Shown piece by piece: positions 3,439 to 28,921 of a DNA stretch of 64,000 nucleotides. Below the pieces are notes generated by a model. That model did no database searches. It was not told the origin of the DNA and saw only the letters and a program-made list of their open reading frames with translations. Numbering within the stretch: the first letter of the stretch is position 1; every line of letters begins with the position of its first letter. The DNA comes from Nonomuraea sp. SYSU D8015 (GTDB taxonomy: Bacteria; Actinomycetota; Actinomycetes; Streptosporangiales; Streptosporangiaceae): positions 186,001 through 250,000 of the forward strand of contig NZ_VJYI01000008.1 of assembly GCF_008065375.1 (NCBI RefSeq), in the 5' to 3' direction. The translations under genes were made by a program, and so were the position numbers.

Positions 3439-3442
<4 letters not shown>
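2702..3442 (-). CDS. sdhB: succinate dehydrogenase iron-sulfur subunit (operon 1)
   Basis: A 246-residue SdhB/FrdB protein carrying electrons from the flavoprotein to the membrane quinone site. The N-terminal ferredoxin-like domain has the [2Fe-2S] ligands in [13 protein letters not shown] plus a later Cys (TTTCQLHM). The C-terminal domain has [14 protein letters not shown] and [15 protein letters not shown] for the [4Fe-4S] and [3Fe-4S] clusters. The GTG start at 3442 overlaps the sdhA stop as GTGA. It is the last gene of a three-gene sdhC-A-B operon. Size and sequence style match the type B enzymes (Bacillus or Corynebacterium-like) rather than the second operon's SdhB. Confidence 0.93.
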
Positions 3443-5357
<1,915 letters not shown>

Positions 5358-5361
<4 letters not shown>

Positions 5362-12808: not shown

Positions 12809-13557
12809 GCTACAAGGCAAAGTTCAAGGTCTGGCGCGGTGAGGGCGGCGAGGGCAAGCTCGAGGACTTCACCGTGGAGGTCAACGAGGGCGAGGTCGTC
12901 CTCGACATCATCCACCGGCTGCAGGCCACCCAGGCTCCGGACCTGGCGGTGCGGTGGAACTGCAAGGCGGGCAAGTGCGGCTCGTGCAGCATGGAGATCA
13001 ACGGCAAGCCGCGGCTCGGCTGCATGACCCGCATGTCGACCTTCGACCCGGACGAGACCATCACGGTCACGCCGATGCGGACGTTCCCGGTCATCAAGGA
13101 CCTCGTCACGGACGTCTCGTACAACTACCAGAAGGCCAGGGAGGTCCCCTCCTTCACGCCGCCGGCCGGCGTGCGGCCGGGCGAATACCGGATGAAGCAG
13201 GTCGACGTCGAGCGGTCCCAGGAGTTCCGCAAGTGCATCGAGTGCTTCATGTGCAACAACGTCTGCCACGTGATCCGCGACCACGAGGAGAACAAGACCA
13301 ACTTCTCCGGTCCGCGCTTCCTCATGCGGATCGCCGAGCTGGACATGCACCCGTATGACGTGGCGGACCGGCAAGAGGCGGCCCAGGAGCAGCACGGGCT
13401 CGGCTACTGCAACATCACCAAGTGCTGCACCGAGGTCTGCCCCGAGCACATCAAGATCACCGACAACGCGCTGATCCCGATGAAGGAGCGCGTGGTCGAC
13501 CGGAAGTACGACCCGCTGGTGTGGCTCGGCAACAAGATCTTCAAGCGCGCCAAGTAG
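12805..13557 (+). CDS. sdhB: succinate dehydrogenase iron-sulfur subunit (operon 2)
   Basis: 250 residues. [2Fe-2S] ligands lie in NCKAGKCGSCSMEINGKPRL plus a following GC. The C-terminal clusters use CIECFMCNNVCHV and CNITKCCTEVCPEHI, a cysteine pattern different from operon 1 and characteristic of the Rv0247c type. It is translationally coupled to sdhA (ATGA). The operon ends at the strong hairpin 10 bases downstream. Confidence 0.93.
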   Translation: MSYKAKFKVWRGEGGEGKLEDFTVEVNEGEVVLDIIHRLQATQAPDLAVRWNCKAGKCGSCSMEINGKPRLGCMTRMSTFDPDETITVTPMRTFPVIKDLVTDVSYNYQKAREVPSFTPPAGVRPGEYRMKQVDVERSQEFRKCIECFMCNNVCHVIRDHEENKTNFSGPRFLMRIAELDMHPYDVADRQEAAQEQHGLGYCNITKCCTEVCPEHIKITDNALIPMKERVVDRKYDPLVWLGNKIFKRAK

Positions 13558-13608: not shown

Positions 13609-14931
13609 TCACTTCCCGCGGCGGAAGCGCTTGCGCTTGGAGTCCGGCATCTCCTTGGTCGGCTCCTCCTGCGGCTGCGGCGGCGGGAGGGGCTGCACGG
13701 CCGTCACGTCGCCGTCGGCGGGCACGTCGACCGGCAGGTACGGCGGCGGCTCGTACTCGGCGGGCTTCGAGGCGGGTTCGAACAGGGACGGACCCTGCTG
13801 CTGCCACGGCTCGGAGTCGCCCGGCTCAGCCGTCGGGGTAGGGCCGAGCGGGTGCTCGCGGCCGTCGTCGTACGGGGCGGCGCCGCCCGGCGGGATGTCC
13901 GACGGCGGGACCAGCGGCTCGAACGGGTCGCGATACTCCTTGGCCTTCGGCGGCTCGTGGCTGTAGGAGTCGAACTCGTCCGGGTGCAGCACGACGGGGG
14001 GCGGCTCGTCCGAAGCCGCCGGCGGGGGCTCCGGCGCGTAACCCTGCGGCGGGTACGGGTGTCCCGGGTCCTGGTAGACCGGGCCGCTCGGGTAGGTCTG
14101 CACGGGCACGAAGCTGATGATCGGCGCGTACGCCGTTCCGCCCGGGTAGGCGGCCGAGCCGGGGAAGCCCGCAGCGTATCCGGGACCGGCCGGGTAGCCG
14201 GCGCCCGGCGGGTAGCCGGCGCCGGGCTGGGGCGGCGGCATGTCCGGACGTCCCATCTGCGGCCCCGCCTTGCGCACGGCCGCCGCGTGGGCCAGGCGGC
14301 GCAGCCGTCCCTCGAAGATCAGCACGGCGAAGAGCGCGAGCAGGACCAGCACCAGCGCAGGGATGCTGAGCTTGCGCGTCAGGGACTCCTGGTCGAACTC
14401 CGGCGCCGCGTTACGCAGCTCCAGCGGCACTTCCTCCTGCGAGGCGGGCTGCGTCTCGCTCGGCGTCGTCACCGGGGTGGACGGCGTGGGCGCGATGCTG
14501 GGCATCTCGACGCTCGCCTCGGTCGTGGGTGAGACGCTGGTGGTGGGCGGCGGCTCGACGTTCTGCGAGGGCGGTATCACCGGCTGGGGGTTCTGGGTCG
14601 GAGTGGCCGGCGGCGGGGTGTTCGCCTGAGGGGTGGAGCTCTTCGTCGGCGAAGGGCTCTTGGTCTTCTTCGTCGGCGACGCCGTGACGGTCTTGGTGAC
14701 CGTGGTCTCCGGCGGGTCCGTGGGCGTCGGCGTGCCTAAGGTGGTGGTCACCGTGACCGTGGTCTGGGGGTCGGACTCACACGAAGGGTCATCGACGTCA
14801 CACGGCTCGACGGGGTCGAACGCCGACACCGACGCGCTCGCGCTCTGCACGATGAACGGCGTCGCTCCGGCGCCGGTCAGTCCCAGCGCCAGGACGATCG
14901 CGGACACGGCTGTCGCTCGGGTGCGTGCCAC
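13609..14931 (-). CDS. secreted Pro/Thr-rich membrane-anchored protein, secretion-locus end
   Basis: 440 residues with no family I recognise. A signal peptide (about 1-34, ending near ASASVSA) leads to a Thr/Pro/Ser-rich stalk (about 50-175). One membrane helix follows (LSIPALVLVLLALFAVLIF, about 190-208), then a Pro/Tyr/Gly-rich cytoplasmic tail ending in a basic patch (SKRKRFRRGK). The stalk should lie outside the membrane and the tail inside. GTG 14931 has a GGAGGG site. It is the last of the minus-strand genes that begin at 28491. Membership in the same functional unit is inferred from strand and shared architecture with the next gene. Confidence 0.7.
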   Translation of the reverse strand: MARTRATAVSAIVLALGLTGAGATPFIVQSASASVSAFDPVEPCDVDDPSCESDPQTTVTVTTTLGTPTPTDPPETTVTKTVTASPTKKTKSPSPTKSSTPQANTPPPATPTQNPQPVIPPSQNVEPPPTTSVSPTTEASVEMPSIAPTPSTPVTTPSETQPASQEEVPLELRNAAPEFDQESLTRKLSIPALVLVLLALFAVLIFEGRLRRLAHAAAVRKAGPQMGRPDMPPPQPGAGYPPGAGYPAGPGYAAGFPGSAAYPGGTAYAPIISFVPVQTYPSGPVYQDPGHPYPPQGYAPEPPPAASDEPPPVVLHPDEFDSYSHEPPKAKEYRDPFEPLVPPSDIPPGGAAPYDDGREHPLGPTPTAEPGDSEPWQQQGPSLFEPASKPAEYEPPPYLPVDVPADGDVTAVQPLPPPQPQEEPTKEMPDSKRKRFRRGK

Positions 14932-15005
14932 CGTTGCCCTCCGCGTAGTCCCGGAACCATGGTCAAGGGAATACTAGTCGGGTCAAAGTAACAGTAAAGA
15001 CCGAA

Positions 15006-16349
15006 TTACGACACCATTCTACGCCTCTGGCGCTTTTGTACCGTGACAATGACCCAAAGAGCTCCGAGCAGCGTCGCAATGGCCCCAACGGCCAGCGTAT
15101 GCCCCACGGGCCCTTTGAGCGGGCTGACCCGTCCGTCGGGCCGCGCCGCCCGCTTCGTCGCAGCCGCCATTTCCCACGGCAACGGCGCCCCGGGGGGCGC
15201 GGCGGCCAGAGGGGGCGGGGCCGCACCGGGCGCGGGCGAGGCCTGGGGCAGGAGGCCGGGGGCCTCTCCGGGCATGCCTGGGAACGCGCTCGCGGCGGCA
15301 TCGGGGCCGGCGGCCGACGCGGACGCATGAGGAAGCGCCTGTCCGCCCCCGTAGACCACGCTCGGCAGATCCTCATCGGCCGGGCCTGGCCTACGCGCAT
15401 CCGCCGTGTCCCGCCCACGCGCCAAGGTCGCCGCCTCGCCGGTCGGATGCGCACGCACCTCGGCTATGCCTGTGCGACGCGGCCGCGCCTCGGCCTTGCC
15501 CTGCTCACGTCCGGCGGTCGCGGAGGCGTCCGGCGCCTGACGGCCACCCGTGGAATCCTCCACAAGGGGACCCCCTGCCGCCGTGGAACCACCACCGCCC
15601 TCCGGGCCTCCCGAGCCGACTGTGGCGGGCTCCGGCCCCTCCCAGCCTTGTACAGGTGTCTCGGGACCGGCCGAGGGGTCTCCGGGCGTCTCCGCGCCCT
15701 GCGAGCCGTGCTTCGCCGTGGCGGGGCCGCTGATCGTCGGGACTGTGTCCGTCACCCGGGTGGTGACCGTCCGCTGCATGGTGGTCAGGCCGTCACCCTC
15801 GGCGGCCCGCATGTTGGCCGCCGCGGCCAGCACCACCGTCCCAGCCCCATCGGGGGCCGTGAGCGTCACGTCCACGGAGCGTTCACCGGTGACGCTCCCG
15901 AGCCTGCACACCTGCGCCCCATCAGGAAGAGCGGCGGAGGCCCCGGCGACCTTCAGCGCCCGCACGGCCAGCCCCTGGGCGGCGAGCGTCACGTCCTGCG
16001 CGTCTTGGGAAGGCACCGCCATGGCACCAGCGCCCGTGGCCGGCGGCGCTTGGATGACGGGCGGGCTCGGGGTGGCAGACAGCCCCAGGGCGGCGCGGGC
16101 CGACGGCATGCACGTCACCTCCGCCAGCGCCTCCACCGGACTGGCCGCCACCGCCACACTGGCCCGCTCGCCCATCCCGTTCAGCCGTATCCGGAACCGC
16201 TGCACGTCCCCGGTCCTGGTCCACTTCCCGACCTCGCCGCCGGAGTCGTTCACCCGCTCCAGCACCAGCGAGACCCCGGTCGCGGCCATGGGCACGGAGG
16301 GCACCGCCGCCAGGATCACCGCTCCGGCCAGGATCCAGCCACGACGCAT
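15006..16349 (-). CDS. secreted protein with C-terminal membrane anchor, unknown function
   Basis: 447 residues. The signal peptide is MRRGWILAGAVILAAVPSV onward. A structured part runs to about 205 (strand-rich, with SLVLERVND, RFRIRLNG and VDVTLTAPDGAGTVVLAA and two cysteines), resembling an immunoglobulin-like extracellular domain. A Gly/Pro/Ala-rich linker of about 200 residues follows, then a C-terminal membrane helix (LAVGAIATLLGALWVIVTV) and a short basic tail (QKRQRRRMVS). I chose ATG 16349 because GGGGGAGTGGGAG precedes it. It has no LPXTG motif. It is a possible surface component of the secretion-like locus. Confidence 0.7.
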   Translation of the reverse strand: MRRGWILAGAVILAAVPSVPMAATGVSLVLERVNDSGGEVGKWTRTGDVQRFRIRLNGMGERASVAVAASPVEALAEVTCMPSARAALGLSATPSPPVIQAPPATGAGAMAVPSQDAQDVTLAAQGLAVRALKVAGASAALPDGAQVCRLGSVTGERSVDVTLTAPDGAGTVVLAAAANMRAAEGDGLTTMQRTVTTRVTDTVPTISGPATAKHGSQGAETPGDPSAGPETPVQGWEGPEPATVGSGGPEGGGGSTAAGGPLVEDSTGGRQAPDASATAGREQGKAEARPRRTGIAEVRAHPTGEAATLARGRDTADARRPGPADEDLPSVVYGGGQALPHASASAAGPDAAASAFPGMPGEAPGLLPQASPAPGAAPPPLAAAPPGAPLPWEMAAATKRAARPDGRVSPLKGPVGHTLAVGAIATLLGALWVIVTVQKRQRRRMVS

Positions 16350-16424
16350 CACTCCCACTCCCCCGTTGCGACAGATCACCAGCTAGTAACGCCTAGTAAT
16401 CATTCTGTCACAGAGAGGAACCAG

Positions 16425-16820
16425 TCAATCAGGCAGGATCAGCCCCTCAACGGTCTTCATGATCGGCAGATCGGCCCCGAGCCACTCCACGTCGTAGTAT
16501 TCGCCGGGCCCGAGCCATCTCAGCGCCAGATGCTCCCTGGGCTCCGGCGTCCCGGAGGCCAGCGTGGCCAGCCAGACGCGCAGCACGTACCCCTCGGACA
16601 GCGTCCAGTCGCCGCCCACGCGCTCGCCCACCGCGATCTCCACGCCGAGCTCCTCACGGCACTCCCGGACCAGCGCCGCCACCTCGCTCTCCCCCGGGTC
16701 CACCTTGCCACCGGGGAACTCCCAGCCGCCGGCGTGCGCCGCGGGGGCCGCGCGCTGGGCGGCCAGCACCCGGCCGCCCTCGGCGACGATCACCGCGGCC
16801 ACGACCACGATGTTGCTCAT
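16425..16820 (-). CDS. Nudix hydrolase, MutT-like
   Basis: 131 residues. A complete Nudix box, GGKVDPGESEVAALVRECREELG, starts at about residue 37, giving the metal-binding RECREEL core. It probably hydrolyses nucleoside triphosphates or oxidised nucleotides (MutT/CTP-pyrophosphohydrolase-like group). It sits on the same strand inside the secretion-like cluster, with 75-base and 125-base gaps on either side, so it may be an unrelated insertion. Nothing ties its chemistry to secretion. Confidence 0.88.
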   Translation of the reverse strand: MSNIVVVAAVIVAEGGRVLAAQRAAPAAHAGGWEFPGGKVDPGESEVAALVRECREELGVEIAVGERVGGDWTLSEGYVLRVWLATLASGTPEPREHLALRWLGPGEYYDVEWLGADLPIMKTVEGLILPD

Positions 16821-16945
16821 TGCCTCACCCCGTTCGGCGGCTCAGTCGCCATATGCCGCCGCCTTCCCCCGTCGCTCCTTCGTCGCTCCTCCTCCAGACG
16901 ACGGCACTCCCTCGCGTGCTCATGTGTTCCGATCCCTCATATGCC

Positions 16946-18040
16946 TCATCGGGCTGCATTCTGCAGCTTCTTGAGCTGCTCCAGCACATCGGGGTTCTGC
17001 AGCGGGCGGGTGAAGCCGACACGGTTGGCCCGGGACGAGTAGCTGGTCACCTTGATCGGCCCGCACCGCGTGCACCGTGCCTCCAGCATCTTGCCCTTCG
17101 ACACCACCAGGCCGACGTGCCCCGGGTTGTTGGCCGAAGTGCCCGGCCCGGAGTTGAAGAACACCAGGTCGCCTGGCTGCTCCTCACCCTCTAAGACCTT
17201 CACCCCGAACGGCCACTGGCCGAACGTGGTCCGCGGGATCAACAGCCCCGCCTCTTTGTAGGCCGCGTAGATGACGCCCGAGCAGTCGAACGCGTCCGGC
17301 CCCGTGCCGCCCCACAGGTACGGCTTGCCGCGCTGCGCCAGGGCGTACTGGAGGATCTTGGCCACGACATCGCTCGGCGCGGCCTCGATCAGCGGCTCGT
17401 CGCACTCCTCCTCGGCCTGCGGCGGCACCTTGACGTCGCCGGACTTTGCGTACTTCCTGGCGATCGCCTCGACCTGGTCCACGTACCACCAGGCGCGGTT
17501 GTAGACGAACAGCGCCTGCCGCACGTTCTCGGGCGCCCCGTTGCGCTTGAGCATCTTCGCGGCGCCGAGGATGGCGTCGGCCGGGTTGTACACGTCACCG
17601 ACGCCGTCGCCGTCGCCGTCGGAGGCGTACCCGTTGAACTGCGACGACATCGGGATCCTGGCCTTGCCGCCCCAGGTGGAGATCAGGAACTGCATCGGCC
17701 CGGCCGCGCCGGCGGAGTTGGTGCCGCTCTTGACGCCGGGCAGCGTGGAGCGGCCGTGGTCGGTCTCGCGCTTGCCCACGGCGGCCAGGATGTTCCACTG
17801 GACGCCGATCTTCTCACCGTGCTCTTTGTACAGCTGCAGGTAGTTGGCGGGGATGTCGGTGGAGGCCGAGTCGGACGCCTCCTCCACCTGGACGGTGTCC
17901 TCGCAGTCGATGGTGGTGCGGCCCTCGCTGAGGAACGACGGCATCGAGATCAGCAGCATCGGCGACACGATGACCAGAACCAGCAGGAGCATCCCCGCCA
18001 GGCCGATCAGGAGGGCGAGACGTGCGCGTGAGACGTTCAC
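16946..18040 (-). CDS. bifunctional lytic transglycosylase / NlpC-P60 peptidoglycan hydrolase (TcpG-like)
   Basis: 364 residues. An N-terminal membrane helix (about 8-30) is followed by an SLT-type muramidase domain (about 75-200, catalytic Glu in AAVGKRETDHGRS, plus GAAGPMQFLISTWG). A C-terminal NlpC/P60 endopeptidase (about 225-345) carries the catalytic Cys in DCSGVIYAAY and His in NPGHVGLVV. It would open peptidoglycan locally, the role of VirB1/TcpG in type IV secretion. GTG 18040 has AGGAGG upstream and overlaps the previous stop (GTGA). An EF-hand-like Asp-rich loop (SDGDGDGVGD) lies in the first domain, as in related enzymes. Confidence 0.9.
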   Translation of the reverse strand: MNVSRARLALLIGLAGMLLLVLVIVSPMLLISMPSFLSEGRTTIDCEDTVQVEEASDSASTDIPANYLQLYKEHGEKIGVQWNILAAVGKRETDHGRSTLPGVKSGTNSAGAAGPMQFLISTWGGKARIPMSSQFNGYASDGDGDGVGDVYNPADAILGAAKMLKRNGAPENVRQALFVYNRAWWYVDQVEAIARKYAKSGDVKVPPQAEEECDEPLIEAAPSDVVAKILQYALAQRGKPYLWGGTGPDAFDCSGVIYAAYKEAGLLIPRTTFGQWPFGVKVLEGEEQPGDLVFFNSGPGTSANNPGHVGLVVSKGKMLEARCTRCGPIKVTSYSSRANRVGFTRPLQNPDVLEQLKKLQNAAR

Positions 18041-18660
18041 CCCGGGTCTCCCTCCTGGCCCTCGGCCGCCGGCAGGATGTCGAAGATCCGCCAATCCGTC
18101 CCGGACTGGCGGACCGTGACCGCGTAGTCCTCGTTGAGCAATTTGTCGCCGCTCTTGGCGGAGACCTTCCTGGTGCCGGTGACGACGAAGATGATGGAGG
18201 TCTTGTCGATCTGCCTGATCTCCTTCAACCGGGCCGTGGCCGTGGAGACGATCTCGTCGTCGCGGTTCTGCTCGACGGTGCCCGCCGACGTCATCGTGCG
18301 GCCCAGGATCTCGCCGAGCTCAGGCGTGGTGTACGCCTTCAGCCGCTCGGCGTAGGCCGCCGGGTCCTCGTCGTACCGGAACGTGCCGTAGACGGCGGTG
18401 AACCGCTGGGCCAGGTCCGCCGCCGCGGCAAGGTGCTCCTTCTTCATCGGCAGGTAGTCGTAGACGTCGAACGGCGCGTCGCTGGCGGTCGCCAGCGGCG
18501 TGGACGAGGCGACGGCCACGCTGGTGGGGCGGCTCTGCTGCGGCGCCGGCTCGGCCGGGTCGGCGGATCCCGGCCACAGGGTGACGTAGACGCCGACCGC
18601 GGCGATGACCACGACGATGGCGGCGAAGGCCAGCCCCCGCCTGTCACCTGGCTGGGCCAT
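18037..18660 (-). CDS. single-pass membrane protein, VirB8/NTF2-like
   Basis: 207 residues with a cytoplasmic N-terminus, one membrane helix (about 10-30) and a Ser/Pro linker. A globular external domain follows (about 65-200: AADLAQRFTAVYGTF, YTTPELGEILGRTM, YAVTVRQSGTDWRIFDI). The helix/strand order resembles the NTF2-like fold of VirB8-type proteins. The fold assignment is by eye. It lies 2 bases after the VirB6-like gene and overlaps the hydrolase gene (GTGA), so it is part of the operon. Confidence 0.65.
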   Translation of the reverse strand: MAQPGDRRGLAFAAIVVVIAAVGVYVTLWPGSADPAEPAPQQSRPTSVAVASSTPLATASDAPFDVYDYLPMKKEHLAAAADLAQRFTAVYGTFRYDEDPAAYAERLKAYTTPELGEILGRTMTSAGTVEQNRDDEIVSTATARLKEIRQIDKTSIIFVVTGTRKVSAKSGDKLLNEDYAVTVRQSGTDWRIFDILPAAEGQEGDPG

Positions 18661-18662
18661 GT

Positions 18663-20939
18663 TCAGTCCTTGTCCGGGTTGTTCGGCTTGAGCCAGAAGG
18701 GCACGGACGGGCGGTCGTCGGAGCCACCGTCACGGCTGCTCTGCAGCCACAGCGGCGGCGCTTCCGACGCGCGCGACGCGGGCTCGTCGGAGCCGAAGAT
18801 GCGGGGTCCGCCCGCCCTGGCGCCGCCGCGGGGCGCGCCTCCTGTGGGCCTGGCTCCGCCGTTGCGCGAGCCTCCGCCCCCGGAGCCTCCGAACAGGCCG
18901 CCACCGCCGTTGCGCGAGCCCCCACCCGAACCACCGAACAGGCCGCCACCGTTGGAGCCGCGCGAGCGCGTGCCCCCGCCGCCCGAGCCGCCGAACCTCG
19001 ACCCACGGGACGAGCCGGTACGCGGACCCGCCGACGAGCCGCCGCGCGGGGCCCAGCCGCCGCCCGACCGGCCGCCGAACCAGCCGCCACCGGACGAGGA
19101 ACCGTTGGAGCCCGTCGAGCCACCCGTCCCGGCCCCTCTGGCGCCGCCCGTGCCGCCCACCCGGGGACCGCCGGCGCCCGGCGTGCGGGTCGAGCCGCCG
19201 CCCAGGTTGAGCGGTGGCGCGGTGCCCCTGCGCGGCTCCATCGGGGCCCTGGCGCCCGCCTTGCCGCCCTGCTGGTCGGTGTCGAGCGGCGCCGCCGTGG
19301 CCGGGACCCGGGAGCCGGAGGACGTGCCGTCGCCCTCCTCGCCGCGTACCCGGACCTGCCCCGCGGCCGCGGCCGTGGTCGCCGCCGCGGCGGCCGGGTT
19401 GGCAGCAGCGGCCGCCCTGATGAGGGGCTCGGCCTTGCGCAGCCCCCAGCGGCCGATCCGGGCCTGGGCGACCGGCGGCAGCACGCCCGCCGAGCGTTCG
19501 AGCACGGACGAGCTCGCGGCTTCGCCGAGCATGCGGGTGGTGACGTTGTGGCCGTTGATCGAGGCGAACAGGTGCTGGAACGGGCGCCGGTAGAAGAACA
19601 CCGCGATCGTCAGCAGGGCCATGAACAGCACCTGCATGCCCCATGGCATGGCCGTGGAGATGATCAGGGCATACCCGTACACGAGGACGCTCAGCACGAG
19701 CGTCAGCACCGCCTGTCTCAGCAGCGTGCCGATGAGCATCTCCACCCAGCGCATGGCGATGATGCGGCCGCTGCCCGGATGCACGCCGATGAGCAGGAAC
19801 ACCGGCCCCAATATCAGCAACAGCAGGAAGCCCACCTTCAACACCAGCAGCGACACCGCCACCAGGAAGATGAGCAGCCCGGCCACGACGGCGGCGATCA
19901 ACGCGCCGACGGCCACGCCGAGCCGGTTGGACCAGTCACGGCCGGAGAAGACGGTGTAGCGGGGGTCGTTCCTGAGCTTCTCGGCGAGCGCGGCGTATTC
20001 CTGCTGGCGGGCACCCACGTCAGGAGCCGGCTGACCGGCCACGGCAGGCGGGATCGACTGCATCTCCAGCACCTTGCGGCCCCAGTCGCGCACGATGGGC
20101 TGCTGCGGGTCGGCGGTGCCGAACAGGCCCACGAGCCACGGCTTGCAGACCAGCGTGGACCACAGCGCGTCGGCGTTCTGGTCGACGCCCGGCGTGCCGG
20201 TCTGGGCGTAGCCGCCGGCCTTGACCTCCGCGCCGGATCCGCCGGGCGGCGGCAGACAGGAGGCGCCGCCCGCGCCGGGCAGACCGGAGAAGGCCGAGTT
20301 GACGACCTCGCCGGTCTTGTCGGTGACGACCTTGCCCAGGCCGGTGAAGTCGCCGGGCCGGCTGAGGAACCAGACCGCCACGGTGACCGCCAGCACCATC
20401 CAGATCACGCCCTCGGCGGTCGTGGTGGCCCGCTTGCGGATCAGCCCGTACCAGGCCAGCCAGATCGCGCCGAGGATGACGACCGGCTGCAGGTACGGCC
20501 AGTACATCGCCTTGGAGAGGTTCGTGACGATGTCGTCGACCACGTCCTTGATCGACTGGAGCGGTCCTTCGGTTGCCGCCGCCTGGTACGTGGTGATCGT
20601 CAGCCGGTCGATGGCCTTGGCCGCGGTGAAGACGCCGTTGGCCCACATGTTGCCGAGCACGGCGACGTAGTCGGCGCAGCCCAGGTCGTGGGTGTGCCAG
20701 AACTGGCCGCTCATGCCGAACTGACCGTAGTTGGTGGTCGGCGCCCCGTTCGCCGGGTTCGGCGCCTGGATCAGGCCGTCGGTGCCGCCGCCGACCATCT
20801 CGGGATTGAGCGGGCCCGACAGGTCACAGGGGGCCGCGGCGGCCGGGGCGGACATGCCGCCGATGGCCAGCGGCACTGCCAGGATGGCTGTGACCAGCGC
20901 AAGAGCCAGCGCGAGTCGTCGGGATAGCCGGATCTTCAT
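18663..20939 (-). CDS. polytopic membrane protein, VirB6/TcpH-like, with long Gly/Ser-rich tail
   Basis: 758 residues. A signal-like helix (1-36) is followed by an external segment, helices at about 150-190, a second extracytoplasmic part with two cysteines, then a cluster of at least five helices (about 345-475). The last 250 residues are low-complexity and include repeats of the type FGGSGGGSRNGGG, with scattered Arg. The topology matches VirB6/TrbL-like channel proteins and TcpH of Gram-positive systems. The tail should be cytoplasmic and disordered. The start overlaps the ATPase stop (ATGA). Confidence 0.75.
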   Translation of the reverse strand: MKIRLSRRLALALALVTAILAVPLAIGGMSAPAAAAPCDLSGPLNPEMVGGGTDGLIQAPNPANGAPTTNYGQFGMSGQFWHTHDLGCADYVAVLGNMWANGVFTAAKAIDRLTITTYQAAATEGPLQSIKDVVDDIVTNLSKAMYWPYLQPVVILGAIWLAWYGLIRKRATTTAEGVIWMVLAVTVAVWFLSRPGDFTGLGKVVTDKTGEVVNSAFSGLPGAGGASCLPPPGGSGAEVKAGGYAQTGTPGVDQNADALWSTLVCKPWLVGLFGTADPQQPIVRDWGRKVLEMQSIPPAVAGQPAPDVGARQQEYAALAEKLRNDPRYTVFSGRDWSNRLGVAVGALIAAVVAGLLIFLVAVSLLVLKVGFLLLLILGPVFLLIGVHPGSGRIIAMRWVEMLIGTLLRQAVLTLVLSVLVYGYALIISTAMPWGMQVLFMALLTIAVFFYRRPFQHLFASINGHNVTTRMLGEAASSSVLERSAGVLPPVAQARIGRWGLRKAEPLIRAAAAANPAAAAATTAAAAGQVRVRGEEGDGTSSGSRVPATAAPLDTDQQGGKAGARAPMEPRRGTAPPLNLGGGSTRTPGAGGPRVGGTGGARGAGTGGSTGSNGSSSGGGWFGGRSGGGWAPRGGSSAGPRTGSSRGSRFGGSGGGGTRSRGSNGGGLFGGSGGGSRNGGGGLFGGSGGGGSRNGGARPTGGAPRGGARAGGPRIFGSDEPASRASEAPPLWLQSSRDGGSDDRPSVPFWLKPNNPDKD

Positions 20940-23413
20940 GACCGTACCTCCTGCGCCCTGCCCACGCCCCCTTGAAGATCATCATGCCCGGCGCCGTCGG
21001 GTTTGTCGTGTGTTGGATTCGTGTCGAGCCAGCGGAGAAGCTCCTCGGAGATCAGGTCTACTCCGATACGGCCTGCCCTGCCATCCAGATCGCGGAATAC
21101 GCATTCGCCGTTTCCGAGCGAGCGCAGCACTGCCTTGTGCTCTTCCGACGGTTCCACCCCGAGCAGGGACATGACGTGGTCCACCTCCACCCGTTCGGTG
21201 GACCTGAACGCGAAGACGGACGACAGGCAGTTGGTCACCTGCTCGTTCAGCAGGTCTCCCGCGTTCTGCGAGACCAGCACGAGCGCGGTGTTGCGGGAGC
21301 GGCCCATCCGGCTGACCTCGGGCACCAGCTTGGCGCCCTCGGGCGTGGAGGTGATCGCCCACGCCTCGTCCAGGAAGATCGCCTTGGGGGCACGCCGGTC
21401 GAGGCCGTTCATGAGCCTGCGCGCGAACTGTGACACCAGGTAGAGCAGGGCCACCGACAGCCGCTGCTCGTAGGAGTAGTCCTCCCTGGTCGTGGTCACG
21501 TCGGGGAGCGTCAGCCCGCCCAGCGTGAACACGGTCGTCCACCCCTCCGTGTCGATCTGGTCGCCGCCCGACGGGTCGAAGCAGAGCCTGGCCAGGTGCA
21601 TCTCCGACATCGAGCGCAGCACGGCGCCGAGGTTCTTCGACGCCGGGTCCTCGGCCTGCTCCAGGTGGTCCACGACCTTGCCGAGCGACGGGTCGGGCTG
21701 GTTGGAGACCGCGGCCACCGCCTGGATCATCGCCGACTCGCGCTCCTCCGACATGCGCGGCAGCAGCAACCGCAGCGTCTCGGTGGCCATGGTCTTCTTG
21801 GCCGCGATGTCGTCGCCGAACGAGAACGGGTCGAGCAGGCCCGGCGCCGCCGAGCCGAGCGGGATGATCCGCGCCTTGCGCCCGCGCTTCTCCAGCAGCC
21901 GCACCAGCGACTCGGCGTCGCCCTTGGGGTCGATCACCGCGACGGTCACGCCGCGCAACGCCATCTGGTAGATCATCAGCAGCGCGAGCGTGGTCTTGCC
22001 GCCGCCCGGCTCGCCGGTGATCGCGATGGCGGTGGGCCGGTTGCGGGTGGCCGCCAGCAGCGGGTCGAAGTGCACGATGCTGCGGGCGCGGCCGACGGTC
22101 TCGCCGATGTACGGGCCCAGCCAGCCCTCGCTGCCCTCGCCGAGCCGGTCGCCGAGGTCGACGGTGGCCGTGGCCATGCCGCCCGCGATCGTCCGCAGCG
22201 GCTGGCGCTGCGCGTAGGCGTTGACGCGTACCTTCTCGCCCGGCAGCGACTCGCAGAACAGCGAGAACTGGTCGCCGGTCGAGTTGACCACGTCGATGCC
22301 CATGTCGCGGTAGTGCTCGACGACCGCCTCCACCCGCTGCACGCAGATGTCCTCGGTCGGGGCCGACACGATCAAGCGGTGCCAGCCGTACACGAAGGGC
22401 AGCCGCTCCTTCGCGATGCCGTGCTCCAGCATCCGGGCCGCGTCGATCTGCTCGGCCAGCGCGAGGGGCGCCTCCGCGCCCGCCTCGCGGATGTGCTGGT
22501 CCATGTCGCGGGCGTGCGCCAGCTTGCGCGCCACGTCCTTCGACGCCTTGACCGGCGGGATCAGCCGCATCCGCGACGAGATCTCCACCGGGAACGGCAG
22601 TTGGTCGGCGAAGTGCATCCACGGCTCGCCGTCCGGGAACGGCATGAGGTCGGGGAAGCGGGCGAACGACAGGTGAGCCACGTACGAGTCGCCCTGCGGC
22701 TGCACGATCCGCAGCAGCGACCTGCCGTTGTGGATCTCGCCCTCGACCAGCGACTCGATCTCGCCCCTGCCCCAGCGCCGGCGCGGGCTGGCCGACGGCG
22801 GCGGGTCGCCGAGCGCGCCCGCGGCCGCGTGCTGGAACAACCACGCCACCTCGACGGAGGTGGCGTGACGGGCGTAGAGCGCGCTCGATGCGAGCGCTCG
22901 GCCCAAGCGTTCGGACTGCTCCGTCCACCGCCCGATCTCGCTGTCGGGCACGTGATCGTCCTCCATGCCGAGCGCCTTCTCCGTCTTCTGGTAGAAGCCG
23001 AAGAGCTGGGCGAGCACGCCGCTGCCGAGCTGCTTGCCCCGCGGGCCCAGCCGAACGCCGAGATAGACCTCCTTCGTCCAGAAGTCCTTCGCCCAGACGT
23101 GCCGGTACATCTCCTCGAGGTAGTCGCGCCAGCCGGGCCCCTCGTCGGACGTGGCGTTGAGCGCCATGGCCCACTCCGCAGCCGGGTACGTGCGGTGCGC
23201 GACCCTCAGGTGGACCTCGGCGTCGGGCATCCTGATCGCGGCCAGCGCGATCGTGATGTTGGTGGCCAGTGCCTCGCGCTCCTCCGGCGTGACGAACTCG
23301 TAGCTGACCGTCGGGAGGCGGAAGTACGCCCATGCGGAGGAGTCTGTGAGCAGGATGCGGTCGTCGAAATAGCGGACCGCGAGGCGCTGGTGCGCTCGGG
23401 ACGCCCTGCTCAT
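20936..23413 (-). CDS. VirB4/TraC/TcpF-like secretion ATPase
   Basis: 825 residues. The N-terminal half is VirB4-like. The C-terminal RecA-like motor has Walker A GEPGGGKTT (Lys473), a second motif VIDPKGDAESL, Walker B KAIFLDEAW at about 680, and the downstream VLVSQNAGDLL motif usual in VirB4/TraC proteins. I chose ATG 23413 because GAGGGGG lies just upstream; an ATG at 23431 is also in frame. It would energise assembly or transport in a type IV secretion apparatus and is the clearest marker of this locus. It overlaps the VirB6-like gene. Confidence 0.88.
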   Translation of the reverse strand: MSRASRAHQRLAVRYFDDRILLTDSSAWAYFRLPTVSYEFVTPEEREALATNITIALAAIRMPDAEVHLRVAHRTYPAAEWAMALNATSDEGPGWRDYLEEMYRHVWAKDFWTKEVYLGVRLGPRGKQLGSGVLAQLFGFYQKTEKALGMEDDHVPDSEIGRWTEQSERLGRALASSALYARHATSVEVAWLFQHAAAGALGDPPPSASPRRRWGRGEIESLVEGEIHNGRSLLRIVQPQGDSYVAHLSFARFPDLMPFPDGEPWMHFADQLPFPVEISSRMRLIPPVKASKDVARKLAHARDMDQHIREAGAEAPLALAEQIDAARMLEHGIAKERLPFVYGWHRLIVSAPTEDICVQRVEAVVEHYRDMGIDVVNSTGDQFSLFCESLPGEKVRVNAYAQRQPLRTIAGGMATATVDLGDRLGEGSEGWLGPYIGETVGRARSIVHFDPLLAATRNRPTAIAITGEPGGGKTTLALLMIYQMALRGVTVAVIDPKGDAESLVRLLEKRGRKARIIPLGSAAPGLLDPFSFGDDIAAKKTMATETLRLLLPRMSEERESAMIQAVAAVSNQPDPSLGKVVDHLEQAEDPASKNLGAVLRSMSEMHLARLCFDPSGGDQIDTEGWTTVFTLGGLTLPDVTTTREDYSYEQRLSVALLYLVSQFARRLMNGLDRRAPKAIFLDEAWAITSTPEGAKLVPEVSRMGRSRNTALVLVSQNAGDLLNEQVTNCLSSVFAFRSTERVEVDHVMSLLGVEPSEEHKAVLRSLGNGECVFRDLDGRAGRIGVDLISEELLRWLDTNPTHDKPDGAGHDDLQGGVGRAQEVRS

Positions 23414-23460
23414 GCCGCCCCCTCGGCGCATGAACGGGCCAGACCTGCTCGCTTGTTCAC

Positions 23461-26400
23461 TTATCGCTCACCGATTCTCGTGCCCGGGGGGTCACTCGCC
23501 AACTCCTCTTCGCTCGGTCGTACGGTCTGTGCCGCGAAGCCCGCGACCACGACACCGGCGAGGGCGAGGTAGGCCCGCCGCCCGGCCGCGCGCAACTGCC
23601 CGGGATCGACGACCTCCGCACCGCCCGGCGCCAGGTCGTCCTCCCAGGGGACCCTGACGATGGCCCGGCACCTGCCCCTGGCCACCGCCTCCGCCTGCTC
23701 GACGTCGGCCATCGAACGCCTGCTCACGCCGTTGACCACCATCACCGCACGCCTGCGCAGCTCCGCGCAGCCGTGCCCGTCGAGCCACTCGTATGTCATC
23801 GCCACCGCCTCGGACGCCTCCTCGCTCGCCGGGACCACCAGGACGAGCTGGTCCGCGTACGGCAGCAGCCGCGCCGCCAGCGCGGCGGCCGGGTCGATCA
23901 CGGCCAGCTTGTAGTGGCGGTCGAGCAGCCGCATGGACTCGCCCAGCCGGTGGTCGGAGAAGAACGACCGGTCCGCCAGGCGCTGCTCGGCGCCCGCGTC
24001 GGTGTCCGCGCTGATCACCTCGAGGCCGGTGGCCGTCCTCGTGGTGTAGCCGCGCATCGTCAGGTAGCCGCTGACCCGGTCGAGCCCGGACAGCAGCGAG
24101 GTGAGGGTCTCGGGGGTCTCGGGCTGGATCCTGCTGGTCAGGGTGCTGCCGCCGGTGTTGGCGTCGACGGCCACGATCCTGTCGTCGCGGTATTGGGCGA
24201 AGGTGTGGCCGAGCATGAGCGCCGTGGTGCTCTGCCCGGCCCCGCCGGTGCAGCCCAGCACGACGATCCTCCGGCTGCCGCTGAACACGGCCCTGGCCCT
24301 GGCCTCGTCGATCTCCGACCCGTCGGTCCGCACCCCGCTCCCGCCGACGACCACCTGCGCGATCCGCCGCCACCCGCCGGAGTCCCGCCCCACGACGGAC
24401 TCGACCCTGCGCACCCGCCCCTCACCGGGCCTCGGCACCGGCACGGGCGCCACCAACTCCCCGGTCCGCACACCAGACCGCTCGCCGGCCTCCCGCCCGG
24501 CGACCCCGCGCCGCTCCTCGACCGCCTCCCGCCGGGCGGCCTCTCTCCGCTCCTCAACCACTCCGCGGCCGGCCGCCTCACGCCGCTCCCCGGCGGTCTC
24601 GCGCCGCTCGCTGGTCGCATCCTGCGTGAAGGACCCGGCGCGTTCGGAGGCCTCCTCGCGCGCGAAGGTCTCCCCCTCGCGCGCAGGCAAGGCCCCGTCG
24701 CGCGCAGGCAAGGCCCCCTCGCGTACAGGCAAGGTCCCGTCGCGCGTAGGCAAGGCGCCGTCGCGCGCGGATGCCGCCGCCTCGCCGGGCGCATCCGCAT
24801 CCGTCTCGCCCTGTCCGGACACCGCCGCCTCGCCGGACGCTTGCGCCCCCGGTTCGTCTTGCCCGGACACCGCCTGCTCGTGGTCGGCCCCGAACTCGTG
24901 GACCGACCCGGCCTCGCGGACCGACCCCGCCACCTGGCTTTGGGCGGAAATGCCCGTCTCGTCCCGCACGGACGCCGCCGCCTGGTCGTGGACGGACGCC
25001 ACCGCCTGGTCGAGCGCAGAAGCTCCTGGACGACCGTGCGCGGATGCCGCCGGTCGATCGACGGGGCTCGGCTCCGGTCCCGGCCGACCATCCGCGTCCA
25101 TGGACGCCTCGGACGTGTTGCCGCCCGTCCCGCCGGGCTCCACCGACGCGTCGCCAGTCGCCGCACTCTGCGCCACCGCAGTCGCGTCAGGCCGCGAAGC
25201 ACCGTCCTCCGGCAGGTCAACCGTGGCGGCCGGTTCGTTCGGCTCGTCGATCGGCGTGGTCGTTCCTCCGGGGATCTCGCCCACGGGGCCCGACTCGGTC
25301 CGTCCGTCACGCGCCGCAGGCTGCTCGCCCGGGACGTCGCGTACCGGCTCCAGCTTGTCCAGGCCCTCGGCGACCGGCGGCGGGGCCGGCGTGTCGGTGT
25401 CGCCGGGCGCCGGGGCCGCGCTGCCTGCGGCGGGGAGGTCCGTTGTCTGGGAGCCAGGGCGGGGAATGTCTGGGCGGGGCGAGGGCTTGGCGTCCGGGTT
25501 GAGCGGCGGCCAGACCCGTCGCGTGCCCGCCGGCGCCGACGCAGGGCCCAGCCTGGGCGGCTGCCCCTTCCTGTGCTGGTCCCGCGCGACTTCTTCCTCG
25601 TGCCGCTCGCTCTCCAACCGGCCCGCCACGTCCACGCGCCCGGCCGGGTCGGCCGGTGCGTCGGCGCTGGCGGCGAGTCTCCTCAGCCGTCGCAGTGCCT
25701 CCGTGTCGATCGGCTTCCCCGCTGCGGGCCTGCGGCTTTGCGCCGTCTTGATCGGCACGACCGTTCCGCGCGCGGTCTCCGCCTCACCCGGCGCTCCGTG
25801 CCCGGCCCTGCGCTCGGCATCGCCTCCTCTGCCCGCGCTCCCGGCGTCGTCTCGACTGCTTGTGTCCTCGGCACCACTTCGGGTCGCACGCACCGGAGCG
25901 GCGCCCATCTCGCGGAGGGCCAACTCTTCGGCGGCGATCTCACGCCCCTCGGCCCCGCGGCCCTCGACCCGGCGCCCCTCTACCCCGAGGCCCTGGGCTC
26001 GGCGAGCGGCGATCCCTTCGCCGTCGCTCCCACGGTCGCCGTGTGTCGGCTCGCCGCTCCCGGCGGCCTGCCGAGTAGCGGACTGCCCAGTCGCGGACTG
26101 CTGCGTCGCGGACTGCTGGGTCGCGGACTGCTGGGTCGCGGACCGCTGGGCCTCGCCATCGCTGAGGGCGCGCTCGCGGCCGGGCAGCCGCCATCCGCCG
26201 CCCCTCTTGCCGCCGCCTCTCCGGCCGTCGTCCTTGCGCCCGTCGTCCGCACGGCCGCGGTCCGTCCGGCCACCGTCCGCACGATCGCGGTCCGTCCGGG
26301 CACCGTCCGTACGACCCCGGTCCGTCCGACCGTCGGCTCTCAGGGCCGTGGGCTGGCGCTCGACCGGTGCGGACGTCGATGCCGGGCCTGGCGCGTCGTC

Positions 26401-27096
26401 CCCGTGGACGACGACCAGCGGCAGGTCCTGGCGGCGCCCAGAGCCCCCTGAGAGCCCCTCCTGGCGCCGTACAGCCCCCGCCGGTCCTCCAGTGGCAGGG
26501 GCAGGGGCGCCCTGGCGTACCTGGGCCTTCAGGGCGGGCGCGGCCGTGCCGCGGCGGGCGCCCCAGCCGGTGCCGCCGGTCGCCGGCTCGGCGACAGGAG
26601 CCTGGCCGGCCGCGGCGGCGGCGGCCGCGACGGCGGGGCGCACCTGGCGGGGGCCGGCGATCCGCTGGTCCTCACGCCTGCGCTGCGGATGGCGGGCCTT
26701 GCCCGGCCGCCGCGACTTGGCACGGGCGGGAGCGGTGCGCCAGACGCGCGCCGAGAAGGTGATCGTCTCGGGCTCGGCCAAGGGCGCGAGGCGGTACCAC
26801 GCCTTGGGCTCGCCCAGGTAGCGCAGGTGGGACTCGAGGAGCTCGGTGAGCCGTTTGCCCTCGATGACGGGCCGGGTCGACAGCCAGGTCACGATCCCAG
26901 GCGGCACCAGGAAGAGCACGTGCCACGGCATCGCGACCGGCACGCCCACCAGGATCAGCAGGAGGGACCACGGGACGAACACCCCGACGAAGACGCCGAT
27001 CCAGACGATGGGCAGCGGCATCGGCAGCCGTAGGTCGTACAGCTTGTAGAGCCGCTTCTCGATGCGCCAGATGTTCGTATACGTGGGCAGGTCCAC
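23461..27096 (-). CDS. giant TcpE-like / disordered / ParA-MinD-like fusion protein
   Basis: 1211 residues. Residues 1-120 resemble TcpE-family conjugation proteins (PTYTNIWRIEKRLYKLYD, then two membrane helices). Residues of about 130-920 are Arg/Gly/Ala/Glu-rich low complexity with several tandem repeats. Residues of about 930-1200 form a ParA/MinD-like domain (VVLGCTGGAGQSTTALMLGH, IVAVDANTGGSTL, VVMVNGVSRRSM). The P-loop reads GGAGQST, so the normal Lys is Gln955 and the signature Lys is Cys949 or Thr950; ATP hydrolysis is doubtful. GTG 27096 has a perfect AGGAGG. The long frame in one phase, with consistent codon use and no stops, supports a real fusion. Confidence 0.8.
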   Translation of the reverse strand: MDLPTYTNIWRIEKRLYKLYDLRLPMPLPIVWIGVFVGVFVPWSLLLILVGVPVAMPWHVLFLVPPGIVTWLSTRPVIEGKRLTELLESHLRYLGEPKAWYRLAPLAEPETITFSARVWRTAPARAKSRRPGKARHPQRRREDQRIAGPRQVRPAVAAAAAAAGQAPVAEPATGGTGWGARRGTAAPALKAQVRQGAPAPATGGPAGAVRRQEGLSGGSGRRQDLPLVVVHGDDAPGPASTSAPVERQPTALRADGRTDRGRTDGARTDRDRADGGRTDRGRADDGRKDDGRRGGGKRGGGWRLPGRERALSDGEAQRSATQQSATQQSATQQSATGQSATRQAAGSGEPTHGDRGSDGEGIAARRAQGLGVEGRRVEGRGAEGREIAAEELALREMGAAPVRATRSGAEDTSSRDDAGSAGRGGDAERRAGHGAPGEAETARGTVVPIKTAQSRRPAAGKPIDTEALRRLRRLAASADAPADPAGRVDVAGRLESERHEEEVARDQHRKGQPPRLGPASAPAGTRRVWPPLNPDAKPSPRPDIPRPGSQTTDLPAAGSAAPAPGDTDTPAPPPVAEGLDKLEPVRDVPGEQPAARDGRTESGPVGEIPGGTTTPIDEPNEPAATVDLPEDGASRPDATAVAQSAATGDASVEPGGTGGNTSEASMDADGRPGPEPSPVDRPAASAHGRPGASALDQAVASVHDQAAASVRDETGISAQSQVAGSVREAGSVHEFGADHEQAVSGQDEPGAQASGEAAVSGQGETDADAPGEAAASARDGALPTRDGTLPVREGALPARDGALPAREGETFAREEASERAGSFTQDATSERRETAGERREAAGRGVVEERREAARREAVEERRGVAGREAGERSGVRTGELVAPVPVPRPGEGRVRRVESVVGRDSGGWRRIAQVVVGGSGVRTDGSEIDEARARAVFSGSRRIVVLGCTGGAGQSTTALMLGHTFAQYRDDRIVAVDANTGGSTLTSRIQPETPETLTSLLSGLDRVSGYLTMRGYTTRTATGLEVISADTDAGAEQRLADRSFFSDHRLGESMRLLDRHYKLAVIDPAAALAARLLPYADQLVLVVPASEEASEAVAMTYEWLDGHGCAELRRRAVMVVNGVSRRSMADVEQAEAVARGRCRAIVRVPWEDDLAPGGAEVVDPGQLRAAGRRAYLALAGVVVAGFAAQTVRPSEEELASDPPGTRIGER
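24683..24766 (-). repeat. 21-bp in-frame tandem repeats in the fusion-protein linker
   Basis: Four near-identical 21-bp units encode seven-residue repeats of the form GALPARD/GTLPVRE. They keep frame and differ at a few positions, typical of slippage expansion in a disordered linker. Confidence 0.85.
26076..26153 (-). repeat. 15-bp in-frame tandem repeats in the fusion-protein linker
   Basis: About five units of 15 bp encode SATQQ pentapeptides (variants SATGQ and SATRQ). A further Arg/Asp/Gly repeat block (GRTDRDRADG type) lies upstream in the coding direction at roughly 26230-26340. Confidence 0.85.
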
Positions 27097-27150
27097 CCGG
27101 TCCTCCTCTCCACCCGCTCGTGTATGACCGCCGCCGGACGGTCTCAACCC

Positions 27151-27432
27151 TTACTTGATGCCCAGTGCGCCCGCGATCGCCTTCGCCGTCACCTCGATGA
27201 TGTTGGGAACGTAGAAGATCACTCCGATGGCCACGGCCAGTATCAGGAATTGCACGAATCGCGTGATCTCGCGGGTGAAGAGGAAGAAGAGCGCGACCAC
27301 GGAGACGACAACGAGGAACAACGGGGCGAAGAACGCGCGCAGGAAGTCGGCCAGCCCTCCGGTGTCGATGCCGGTCGACGTGGGCGTCGGCGTCATTTCG
27401 ATCAAGGTGAGCACTAGGGTCTTCAAGGTCAC
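27151..27432 (-). CDS. small two-helix membrane protein, TcpD-like
   Basis: 93 residues. A short Thr/Pro-rich start is followed by two hydrophobic helices (about 33-52 FAPLFLVVVSVVALFFLF and 60-78 FLILAVAIGVIFYVP). Size, position between TcpC-like and TcpE-like genes, and topology suggest TcpD or a VirB2/VirB3-like small component; sequence alone is not decisive. GTG 27432 has GGGAGGA upstream. Confidence 0.7.
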   Translation of the reverse strand: MTLKTLVLTLIEMTPTPTSTGIDTGGLADFLRAFFAPLFLVVVSVVALFFLFTREITRFVQFLILAVAIGVIFYVPNIIEVTAKAIAGALGIK

Positions 27433-27477
27433 TTCTCGTCCTCCCGGGGGGTACCGATCAGCAGTGCGTCCGCGCCT

Positions 27478-28491
27478 CTAGTCAACGACCCGGCCCGCGC
27501 CGCGGATGTCGGCGACGAACCACTTGTCGCCCTGCTTCTCGACGGTGAGCCGGTAGGCCTGCTCCAAGCGCGCGCCGACCGCGGCGGGGTCGGTGGCGTT
27601 CGGGGAGGGCGGGGTCTCGCCGTTCGACACGACCCACACGACGACCGCCTGAATCTCTCGGGTGGCACCCCCCACAGGCACCACGACTTTCTGGAGCTCT
27701 GAGAACGTGAACAGGCCATCGAAGCTCGGCAGGCTCTTGCCCGCGGCGACGTAGCGCTGCAATCCGGCGGCGTTGCCGGAGGAGTATTCCTTGAAGAAGC
27801 CCTCCAACTGCGGCTTCAGCTCTGCGGCGGCCGCCTCGTCGGTCTCCGGCGGCGCCACCTGGGGCAGCTCGGCCGGGGCGGGGGCGGGCAGGATCGCCGG
27901 GCGGCCGGAGACGACGAACCTCTTTCCGGCCTCGGCGCCGGAGTAGTAGATCGGGACCGACAGCATCATCCTGCGGGGGCCGGACTGGAAGGCCACGCTG
28001 GCCACGGCGTTGTTGGAGTCGGTCGTCTCGATGTCGTACGGCTGGATGGCGACGGCGGCCAGCCTGCCGTTGCCGTCCCAGCCGAACTGCGGGGACGAGG
28101 CGTCGGGCAGGAACGCCGCCAGCTTGCGCTGCCTGCTGTCCGCATCCTCGGGAGTGAAATTGAGATAGACCCCTGCGAACTGGGCCGCGAAAGCCATGCC
28201 CTGCTCAGCGGGGAATCCGCTGCGGGCCACCGCTGCGCCATTGGGCGTTGCGGCGTCTTGCTGGGTAAACCGCTCAAATGGGGCACGAATCCCATTCACC
28301 ACGATAACCACGATTAGGGCCCACAGAATGATGCGGCCCGTCCACACAAGCCACCGTCCACCGCCACCGGACCAGCCACCACGGCGCGGCCTGCGGGGTG
28401 GCGGCGCGTCGAAGTCAGCCGTGTCCAGGGTTGCGGAAAGCCCGGGGCCGTCAGCGATCCGAGGATCGTGGACGGTAGACCTACGAGCCAT
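27478..28491 (-). CDS. TcpC-like conjugation protein (VirB8 fold)
   Basis: 337 residues with a cytoplasmic Arg/Pro/Gly-rich N-terminus, one helix (about 50-68, WTGRIILWALIVVIVVNGI) and two consecutive external NTF2-like domains (about 90-195 and 220-337). This is the layout of TcpC from clostridial conjugation systems. Diagnostic segments include FAAQFAGVYLNFTPED and LEGFFKEYSSGNAAGLQRYV. ATG 28491 follows GGAGG; the adjacent GTG at 28494 is too close to it. It is the first gene of the operon running to about 16946 or further. Confidence 0.82.
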   Translation of the reverse strand: MARRSTVHDPRIADGPGLSATLDTADFDAPPPRRPRRGGWSGGGGRWLVWTGRIILWALIVVIVVNGIRAPFERFTQQDAATPNGAAVARSGFPAEQGMAFAAQFAGVYLNFTPEDADSRQRKLAAFLPDASSPQFGWDGNGRLAAVAIQPYDIETTDSNNAVASVAFQSGPRRMMLSVPIYYSGAEAGKRFVVSGRPAILPAPAPAELPQVAPPETDEAAAAELKPQLEGFFKEYSSGNAAGLQRYVAAGKSLPSFDGLFTFSELQKVVVPVGGATREIQAVVVWVVSNGETPPSPNATDPAAVGARLEQAYRLTVEKQGDKWFVADIRGAGRVVD

Positions 28492-28921
28492 CACGCCTCC
28501 GCTCGCGCCGATCCCCCCGGCTGGCGCGGTGTCGTCCGTTGCCGATCCCCATCATCCGCGGTGAAGTAGTCACCCTATCCGGTCTCCGCCATTGTTCCAG
28601 GAAAGCCACGCCCATGCTGCAGGCACGACCGCCCTCACGGCAAACCGGGCCCATATGACAGGCTCCAGTGCCGATTCCTGTCACTTCCCGGTGGAAACGC
28701 CTTTTGACCAGGCCAAACACCTAAAAACGCCTAGCGTGGCGGCCACGGATTCCTGACCAAAATAGGCATGGACTCTCACGGCACGCGCAGGGCGGCGCAC
28801 CGACGGGAAACCTGCTCGCCGGCCCGCCGCCCTGTTGTCGCGCCACGTCACGGCCGCGGCGGCGATCCATACGGATTTCTCATCGGCGGCTCGCGTACGG
28901 AGGAGCGAGCGGAGGGGCGCG
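28492..28921. other. 430-base non-coding stretch upstream of the secretion-like operon
   Basis: It should contain the promoter of the minus-strand operon starting at 28491. It is less G/C-biased in parts (AAAACG and AAAAT tracts near 28725-28765) and has no open frame with good coding character. I see no convincing -35/-10 pair, riboswitch or RNA gene. Confidence 0.4.

Follow-up and report, generated by a model that had tools for sequence, protein, structure and literature searches.

Why should a chromosome keep the channel of a conjugation machine without the parts that load DNA into it? The question is raised by a locus of Nonomuraea sp. SYSU D8015 (Streptosporangiales), in a stretch of 64,000 nucleotides (contig NZ_VJYI01000008.1, positions 186,001 to 250,000; hereafter the window). 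Seven components of a Gram-positive Tcp/Tn916-like (MPF-FA) type IV channel lie on its minus strand, at positions 16946-28494 (Table 1). They include what is diagnostic of MPF-FA, i.e. a VirB4 ATPase with intact Walker motifs, a TcpE-family VirB3 adjoining virB4, TcpC, VirB6, a VirB8 fold and a VirB1 hydrolase. The relaxase and coupling protein that a conjugation system carries in its locus are missing: neither these nor an integrase were found among the 38 distinct open reading frames (ORFs) of the window that were scanned, the other ORFs not having been scanned. We lean, by a little, towards the reading that a Tcp/Tn916-type channel has been domesticated as a core operon that serves host export and can also be used by plasmids that carry a MobF relaxase and the coupling protein VirD4 but no channel of their own.

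Domestication, one of the two branches offered by a first-pass annotation of this DNA, is well supported by sequence comparison, according to which the channel would be a vertically inherited core operon. VirB4 has a match in 199 of 200 genomes of the order (197 strong, two weak), and the one miss and the two weak matches all fall in a single family; TcpD was found in 194 of the 200. Exactly one strong VirB4 copy is present in each of the 20 genomes examined more deeply, and the 12.4 Mb genome of SYSU D8015 likewise has one VirB4 of this kind. In a phylum-wide sample a match was obtained in 76 of 396 genomes, mostly a weak one, and three genomes besides our own reach about 39-50% identity. In another genus of the class, the two genomes sampled (loci L076 and L077) each have a VirB4 of 32% identity and, close to it, a weak match to TcpD; they may represent a second chromosomal lineage of channels. 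The gene order was compared in named loci (80 of 308 used; Nonomuraea, Streptosporangium, Microbispora, Planobispora and relatives). It is complete in 57 of the 59 that exceed 20 kb, the other two lacking a detected VirB6, and sdhB remains near in most, so that the position across relatives, which the first-pass annotation had proposed to compare, proved conserved. VirB4 and sdhB distances are correlated (Mantel r 0.67, 50 loci, 0 of 2000 permutations).

The motor of the channel is under constraint. Compared with the genome G050 of the same genus, the ratio of nonsynonymous to synonymous substitution rates (dN/dS) is 0.07 for VirB4, 0.05 for the MinD-like domain fused to TcpE and 0.08 for sdhB, vs 0.36-0.55 for two Pro-rich neighbours of the operon and for the TcpE-MinD linker; compared with the more distant G184 it is 0.14 for VirB4 and 0.11 for sdhB. 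The Walker Lys, Asp and Glu of VirB4 are intact in 100 of 100 loci (98 distinct VirB4 stretches, some genomes being present under both a handle and a name). The longest reading of VirB4 meets a stop at residue 3 in 6 of these loci, which is better explained by a start at residue 7 than by decay. Since VirB4 is present order-wide, in synteny, in single copy and with a dN/dS like that of sdhB, the locus is not a recent mobile element. Both sporadic recent insertion and a decayed ATPase, which the first-pass annotation had named as outcomes that would overturn domestication, are contradicted by these counts. The gene content does resemble the transfer module of an integrative conjugative element (ICE), as one recently inserted or decaying would show; against it stand the order-wide presence (an ICE being sporadic), the conserved order and flank, the correlation with sdhB, the intact motor motifs, the lack of any tRNA in the window and of an integrase among the ORFs scanned, and we reject this explanation as very improbable. 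Plasmids alone would hardly account for purifying selection on a locus present across the order, and a host-side benefit of the channel is therefore likely.

The closest described arrangement that we compared is the operon of the Bacillus subtilis plasmid NZ_CP154917.1, of the pCW3/Tn916 type (MPF-FA), which has the same order, TcpC-TcpD-TcpE-VirB4-VirB6-VirB8-SLT/C40, with one small extra gene. Identity to the window proteins is 30% for VirB4, 29% for TcpD, 28% for TcpE, 23% for TcpC, 19% for VirB6 and 29% over 344 aa for the SLT protein, whereas the second VirB8 is alike by position only. Unlike the window locus, which is a core chromosomal operon with TcpE fused to a MinD-like domain, the B. 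subtilis plasmid has, upstream of the operon, a DUF87 protein, taken as the coupler, and a replication-relaxation protein; the window locus has neither. Nearly all known functions of Gram-positive type IV systems are DNA transfer, and other roles are a long-standing question, according to a review (PMC12857230). The same review describes a type IV secretion system (T4SS) of Patescibacteria that is, like ours, lineage-wide, chromosomal and monoderm, but that includes a VirD4-like protein and an array of VirB2-like pilins. Among the open-licence papers searched we found none that describes the present locus, and nothing on Streptosporangiaceae together with type IV secretion, on Nonomuraea with a conjugative VirB4, or on a Nocardiopsis relaxase with a conjugative plasmid.

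The most unusual part is TcpE. As the first-pass annotation had it, TcpE is fused to a ParA-like domain: the C end of the protein has a weak CbiA/AAA_31 match, and the model of the domain (positions about 23461-24327; predicted local distance difference test score, pLDDT, 86) matches FlhG and ParA, so that a MinD/ParA fold is predicted. The Walker-A lysine of MinD/ParA ATPases is, however, replaced by Gln in 95 of the 95 loci with the domain; five distant loci of the 100 gave no match to it. In 13 loci one frame of 895-1883 aa encodes the whole fusion. Of 97 frames that match MinD, a simple motif scan recognized a TcpE start in 75; frames from plasmids, truncated frames and divergent ones are among the remainder. 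In a genome of another class (L074:4065-11197) TcpC, TcpD, a short TcpE, VirB4, VirB6, VirB8 and SLT matches follow in the same order and nothing matches MinD, a sign that the fusion may be the derived state. EspI of type VII secretion is a candidate origin of the domain, on which the literature searched offered nothing useful. Even taken alone, a VirB3 joined to a MinD-like domain that lacks its catalytic lysine is out of the ordinary.

If the channel predates most of the order, where are the loading parts? Among 61 genomes, VirD4 (PF02534) was found in 37, PF03432 in 11 and TrwC (PF08751) in 20; by our tally of these searches, 19 of the 61 have none of the three, and all 19 have a strong VirB4. 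Relaxase and VirD4, as represented by these three families, are thus not kept in all hosts, and the three other genomes of the same genus in this sample (G013, G034 and G050) gave no match to any of them. The genome-wide check proposed in the first-pass annotation did reveal a VirD4 on contig 41 and a TrwC relaxase on contig 20 of SYSU D8015. The former was set aside as a partner of the locus, because it belongs to a different T4SS-like cassette (L174:12957-17979), which also encodes a P-loop_TraG ATPase and a protein weakly similar to EccE; other genomes of the order contain cassettes related to it. In G024 a VirD4 lies some 5 kb beyond the operon, next to a peptidase M48 gene; as G031 and G004 have related pairs, it was treated as unrelated. 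An anti-phage system was also considered, and among eight proteins scanned VirB4 alone matched (mad8), which we read as a generic ATPase match.

A channel without VirD4 need not be idle. The pertussis Ptl and Brucella VirB systems, which export proteins in diderms and have a known role, function without it, and by analogy the present channel could have lost DNA transfer and now secrete host proteins that are recognized without VirD4. The lack of relaxase and VirD4 in the locus, their patchiness across genomes, the host function implied by purifying selection and the two Pro-rich membrane proteins adjoining the operon are all in keeping with dedicated protein export. No substrate was found, and the Pro-rich proteins change rapidly (in a relative with a VirB4 of 98% identity they are 44% and 71% identical) and went undetected in several divergent loci. 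We regard dedicated export as unlikely, also in view of the plasmids described below.

Two Nocardiopsis plasmids, NZ_CP099838.1 and NZ_CP080600.1, carry this channel type together with VirD4 and a MobF relaxase, which speaks against a channel confined to protein export. Their VirB4s are 74.5% and 71% identical to that of the window. Counterparts of all eight parts, MinD counted, are found on NZ_CP099838.1 (VirB4 at 74%, the second VirB8 at 25%, E 2e-4), and NZ_CP080600.1 matches each of the eight as well. They differ from the window in that MinD is unfused and has the motif KGGVGKT, the operon is rearranged, and VirD4 and MobF are present. There is a third record of nearly equal length. In the tree both plasmid VirB4s nest inside a chromosomal clade (ultrafast bootstrap 100), which we infer to be Nocardiopsaceae; the plasmid TcpC, TcpD, VirB4 and VirB6 are closest to the same clade, TcpE, SLT and MinD not clearly so. 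PLSDB types both plasmids as non-mobilizable.

Other plasmids have the loading parts only. When VirD4 of contig C77 of G041 was used as a query, 48 of 101 genomes matched at E 0.001, six of them (G041, G033, G022, G093, G059 and G090) at about 38% identity or more. MobF and VirD4, with no match to VirB4, VirB6, TcpC or TcpE, are present on G022:C2 (37.6 kb), G138:C16 (37.8 kb) and G059:C34 (40.3 kb), all with terminal overlaps, on G093:C4 (47.7 kb), in which VirD4 spans the contig ends, and on G041:C77 (36 kb). G093 and G138 belong to the same genus as SYSU D8015. The element of G033 is fragmented. In G090 a MobF plasmid unit some 22 kb long, in which the VirD4 frames are broken, stands in tandem repeat on contig 1 (L243-L245), as an assembly artefact or a concatemer. 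In the ten frames each that were scanned from G022:C2 and G138:C16, VirD4 is the sole transfer ATPase detected, not every frame having been scanned. Among the top candidates scored, G022, G093 and G138 have one VirB4 match each, and in G041 there is a second VirB4 match that is weak and of a different kind.

What is specific in the argument that such plasmids borrow the host channel is TcpD, with few plasmids behind it. G022:C2, G093:C4 and G041:C77 carry a TcpD that is 61-68% identical to that of the window, a finding that weighs against a channel dedicated to protein export. An extra TcpD occurs in three of the six genomes with a VirD4 of the G041:C77 type vs 3 of the 95 others (Fisher p 0.002, the 101 genomes of the VirD4 search being taken as G000-G100). 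Altogether, 15 extra copies occur in 14 of the 194 genomes with TcpD; five of the seven whose location was examined share a contig with this VirD4 family (G041, G022, G093, G138:C16 and G130:C26, the last chromosome-sized and with a broken VirD4). Beside the extra TcpD of G022:C2 lies a gene with a NERD (nuclease-related) domain (L222:14585-15319), and a similar-looking frame accompanies that of G041:C77 (L220:8187-8957).

Several observations weigh against borrowing. G059:C34 has no TcpD, and G033 and G090 show no second one; G138:C16 was left out of the association because it was found through its TcpD. A closed plasmid of G022 (C5), with a more distant VirD4 and MobF, lacks TcpD, and the extra copies of G130:C4 and G119:C239 (two of the seven) have neither VirD4 nor MobF in the stretch read. 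Likewise, neither channel genes nor TcpD were detected in the parts covered (28 of 35, 33 of 35 and 40 of 46 kb) of three Streptomyces plasmids that have MobF and VirD4, and we saw no sign that the hosts of these plasmids have the locus (strong VirB4 in three of the 396 phylum genomes besides our own). A plasmid without a channel is a common plasmid format, and the absence of a channel hence does not prove the use of that of the host. An exclusive chromosomal clade of VirB4 was not rejected by the approximately unbiased test (p 0.055). Finally, the B. subtilis DUF87 coupler had no match in the window and the 100 related loci, FtsK/DUF87 proteins not having been searched genome-wide. The last result bears on yet another explanation, in which conjugation is complete and housekeeping: a chromosomal FtsK/HerA-type coupler elsewhere and a relaxase of another family would transfer chromosomal DNA from hypha to hypha. 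A precedent is the B. subtilis operon, colinear with ours, with its upstream DUF87 and replication-relaxation proteins; neither query matched in the 101 sources, the window included, although these were not genome-wide, and we consider this explanation somewhat less likely still than dedicated export.

Taken with these reservations, the borrowing of the host channel by plasmids is plausible, if rather short of an even bet. The second branch of the first-pass annotation, a relaxosome that lies elsewhere, also finds support: patchy VirD4s and relaxases and channel-less plasmids exist, whereas the VirD4 of SYSU D8015 itself belongs to another cassette, and that the plasmids supply the relaxosome of the locus is something we infer rather than show.

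Table 1. Features of the locus and its neighbourhood (positions in the window)
Feature	Position	Strand	Evidence
TcpC (VirB8-type)	27478..28494	-	PF12642 2.4e-16; present in 59/59 full loci
TcpD-like two-transmembrane protein, 93 aa	27151..27432	-	29% to B. subtilis plasmid counterpart
TcpE (VirB3-type) + long variable linker + MinD/ParA-like domain	23461..27096	-	PF12648 1.7e-20
VirB4-type ATPase	20936..23431	-	AAA_10 5.6e-68
VirB6/TrbL-type channel protein (CD3337/EF1877-like)	18663..20939	-	TrbL/VirB6 1.4e-7
Second VirB8-like protein, one transmembrane segment + NTF2-like domain	18037..18660	-	predicted structure
VirB1-type SLT + NlpC/P60 peptidoglycan hydrolase	16946..18040	-	NlpC/P60 4.7e-20, SLT_2 3e-6
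NUDIX hydrolase, conserved neighbour	16425..16820	-	in 59/59 full named loci
Pro-rich protein, hydrophobic segments N- and C-terminal	15006..16379	-	detected in 25/59 loci
Protein with N-terminal hydrophobic segment, Thr/Pro-rich stretch, transmembrane-like segment, Pro-rich tail	13609..14931	-	neighbour in 58/59 loci
sdhA-sdhB, chromosomal flank	10919..13557	+	sdhB within reach in 49/59 full loci

The assignments in Table 1 differ in their basis. The TcpD-like protein is far under the cut-off of the NCBIfam TcpD model (15.4 bits, cut-off 100 bits, E 0.015) and is named after the protein at the TcpD position of the B. subtilis operon (E 5e-9). The second VirB8-like protein had no family match in the profile scan and is assigned from its AlphaFold model (pLDDT 80), which resembles VirB8-type structures (IcmL-like, PrgL, CagV, DotI); this model and that of the MinD-like domain were built on 33 and 22 rows, respectively, from Streptosporangiaceae only. 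With these matches the operon proposed from the letters alone, on one strand and composed of TcpC, TcpD, TcpE, VirB4, VirB6, VirB8 and SLT/NlpC-P60, was borne out, as were its ordinary chromosomal flanks, sdhAB downstream and matches to xseA and rmuC upstream. The several gene overlaps that had been described reduce to two of 4 bases, VirB4/VirB6 and VirB8/SLT; the remaining junctions are gaps of 2 to about 54 bases, still operon-like. Starts other than those of the longest ORF are probable for TcpE (27096), VirB4 (23413) and SLT (18040). The two Pro-rich proteins, counted earlier as extra components, do adjoin the locus, but the channel core ends at the SLT-NlpC gene, from which the NUDIX gene, missing from the first-pass list, separates them. 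A second flavoprotein of the succinate dehydrogenase/fumarate reductase type lies about 5 kb from sdhAB (3439-5796, minus strand).

The reading that we favor could work as follows. An MPF-FA channel would have been domesticated before most of the Streptosporangiales diversified. VirB4, VirB6 and TcpE-MinD would form the membrane translocon, with TcpC, the second VirB8 and SLT-NlpC providing the route across the thick wall. Probably the MinD-like domain no longer hydrolyses ATP; it may be a tethered scaffold or serve in positioning. A host substrate would be exported by the channel. Channel-less plasmids would plug into it, bringing the relaxase and the coupling protein, and some may supply a TcpD of their own to serve as the interface.

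A core channel that is kept across an order and has no loader in its locus would serve as a model of how such machines are domesticated. We suggest, tentatively and with more doubt than confidence, that the channel is a service of the host to which plasmids bring the relaxase, the coupler and, in some cases, a TcpD adaptor, and that mobility typing based on the channel misses them. If such use in trans is true, plasmids typed as non-mobilizable may transfer in many soil genera, and the TcpD pattern would give a direct handle on how a coupling protein docks onto a foreign channel.

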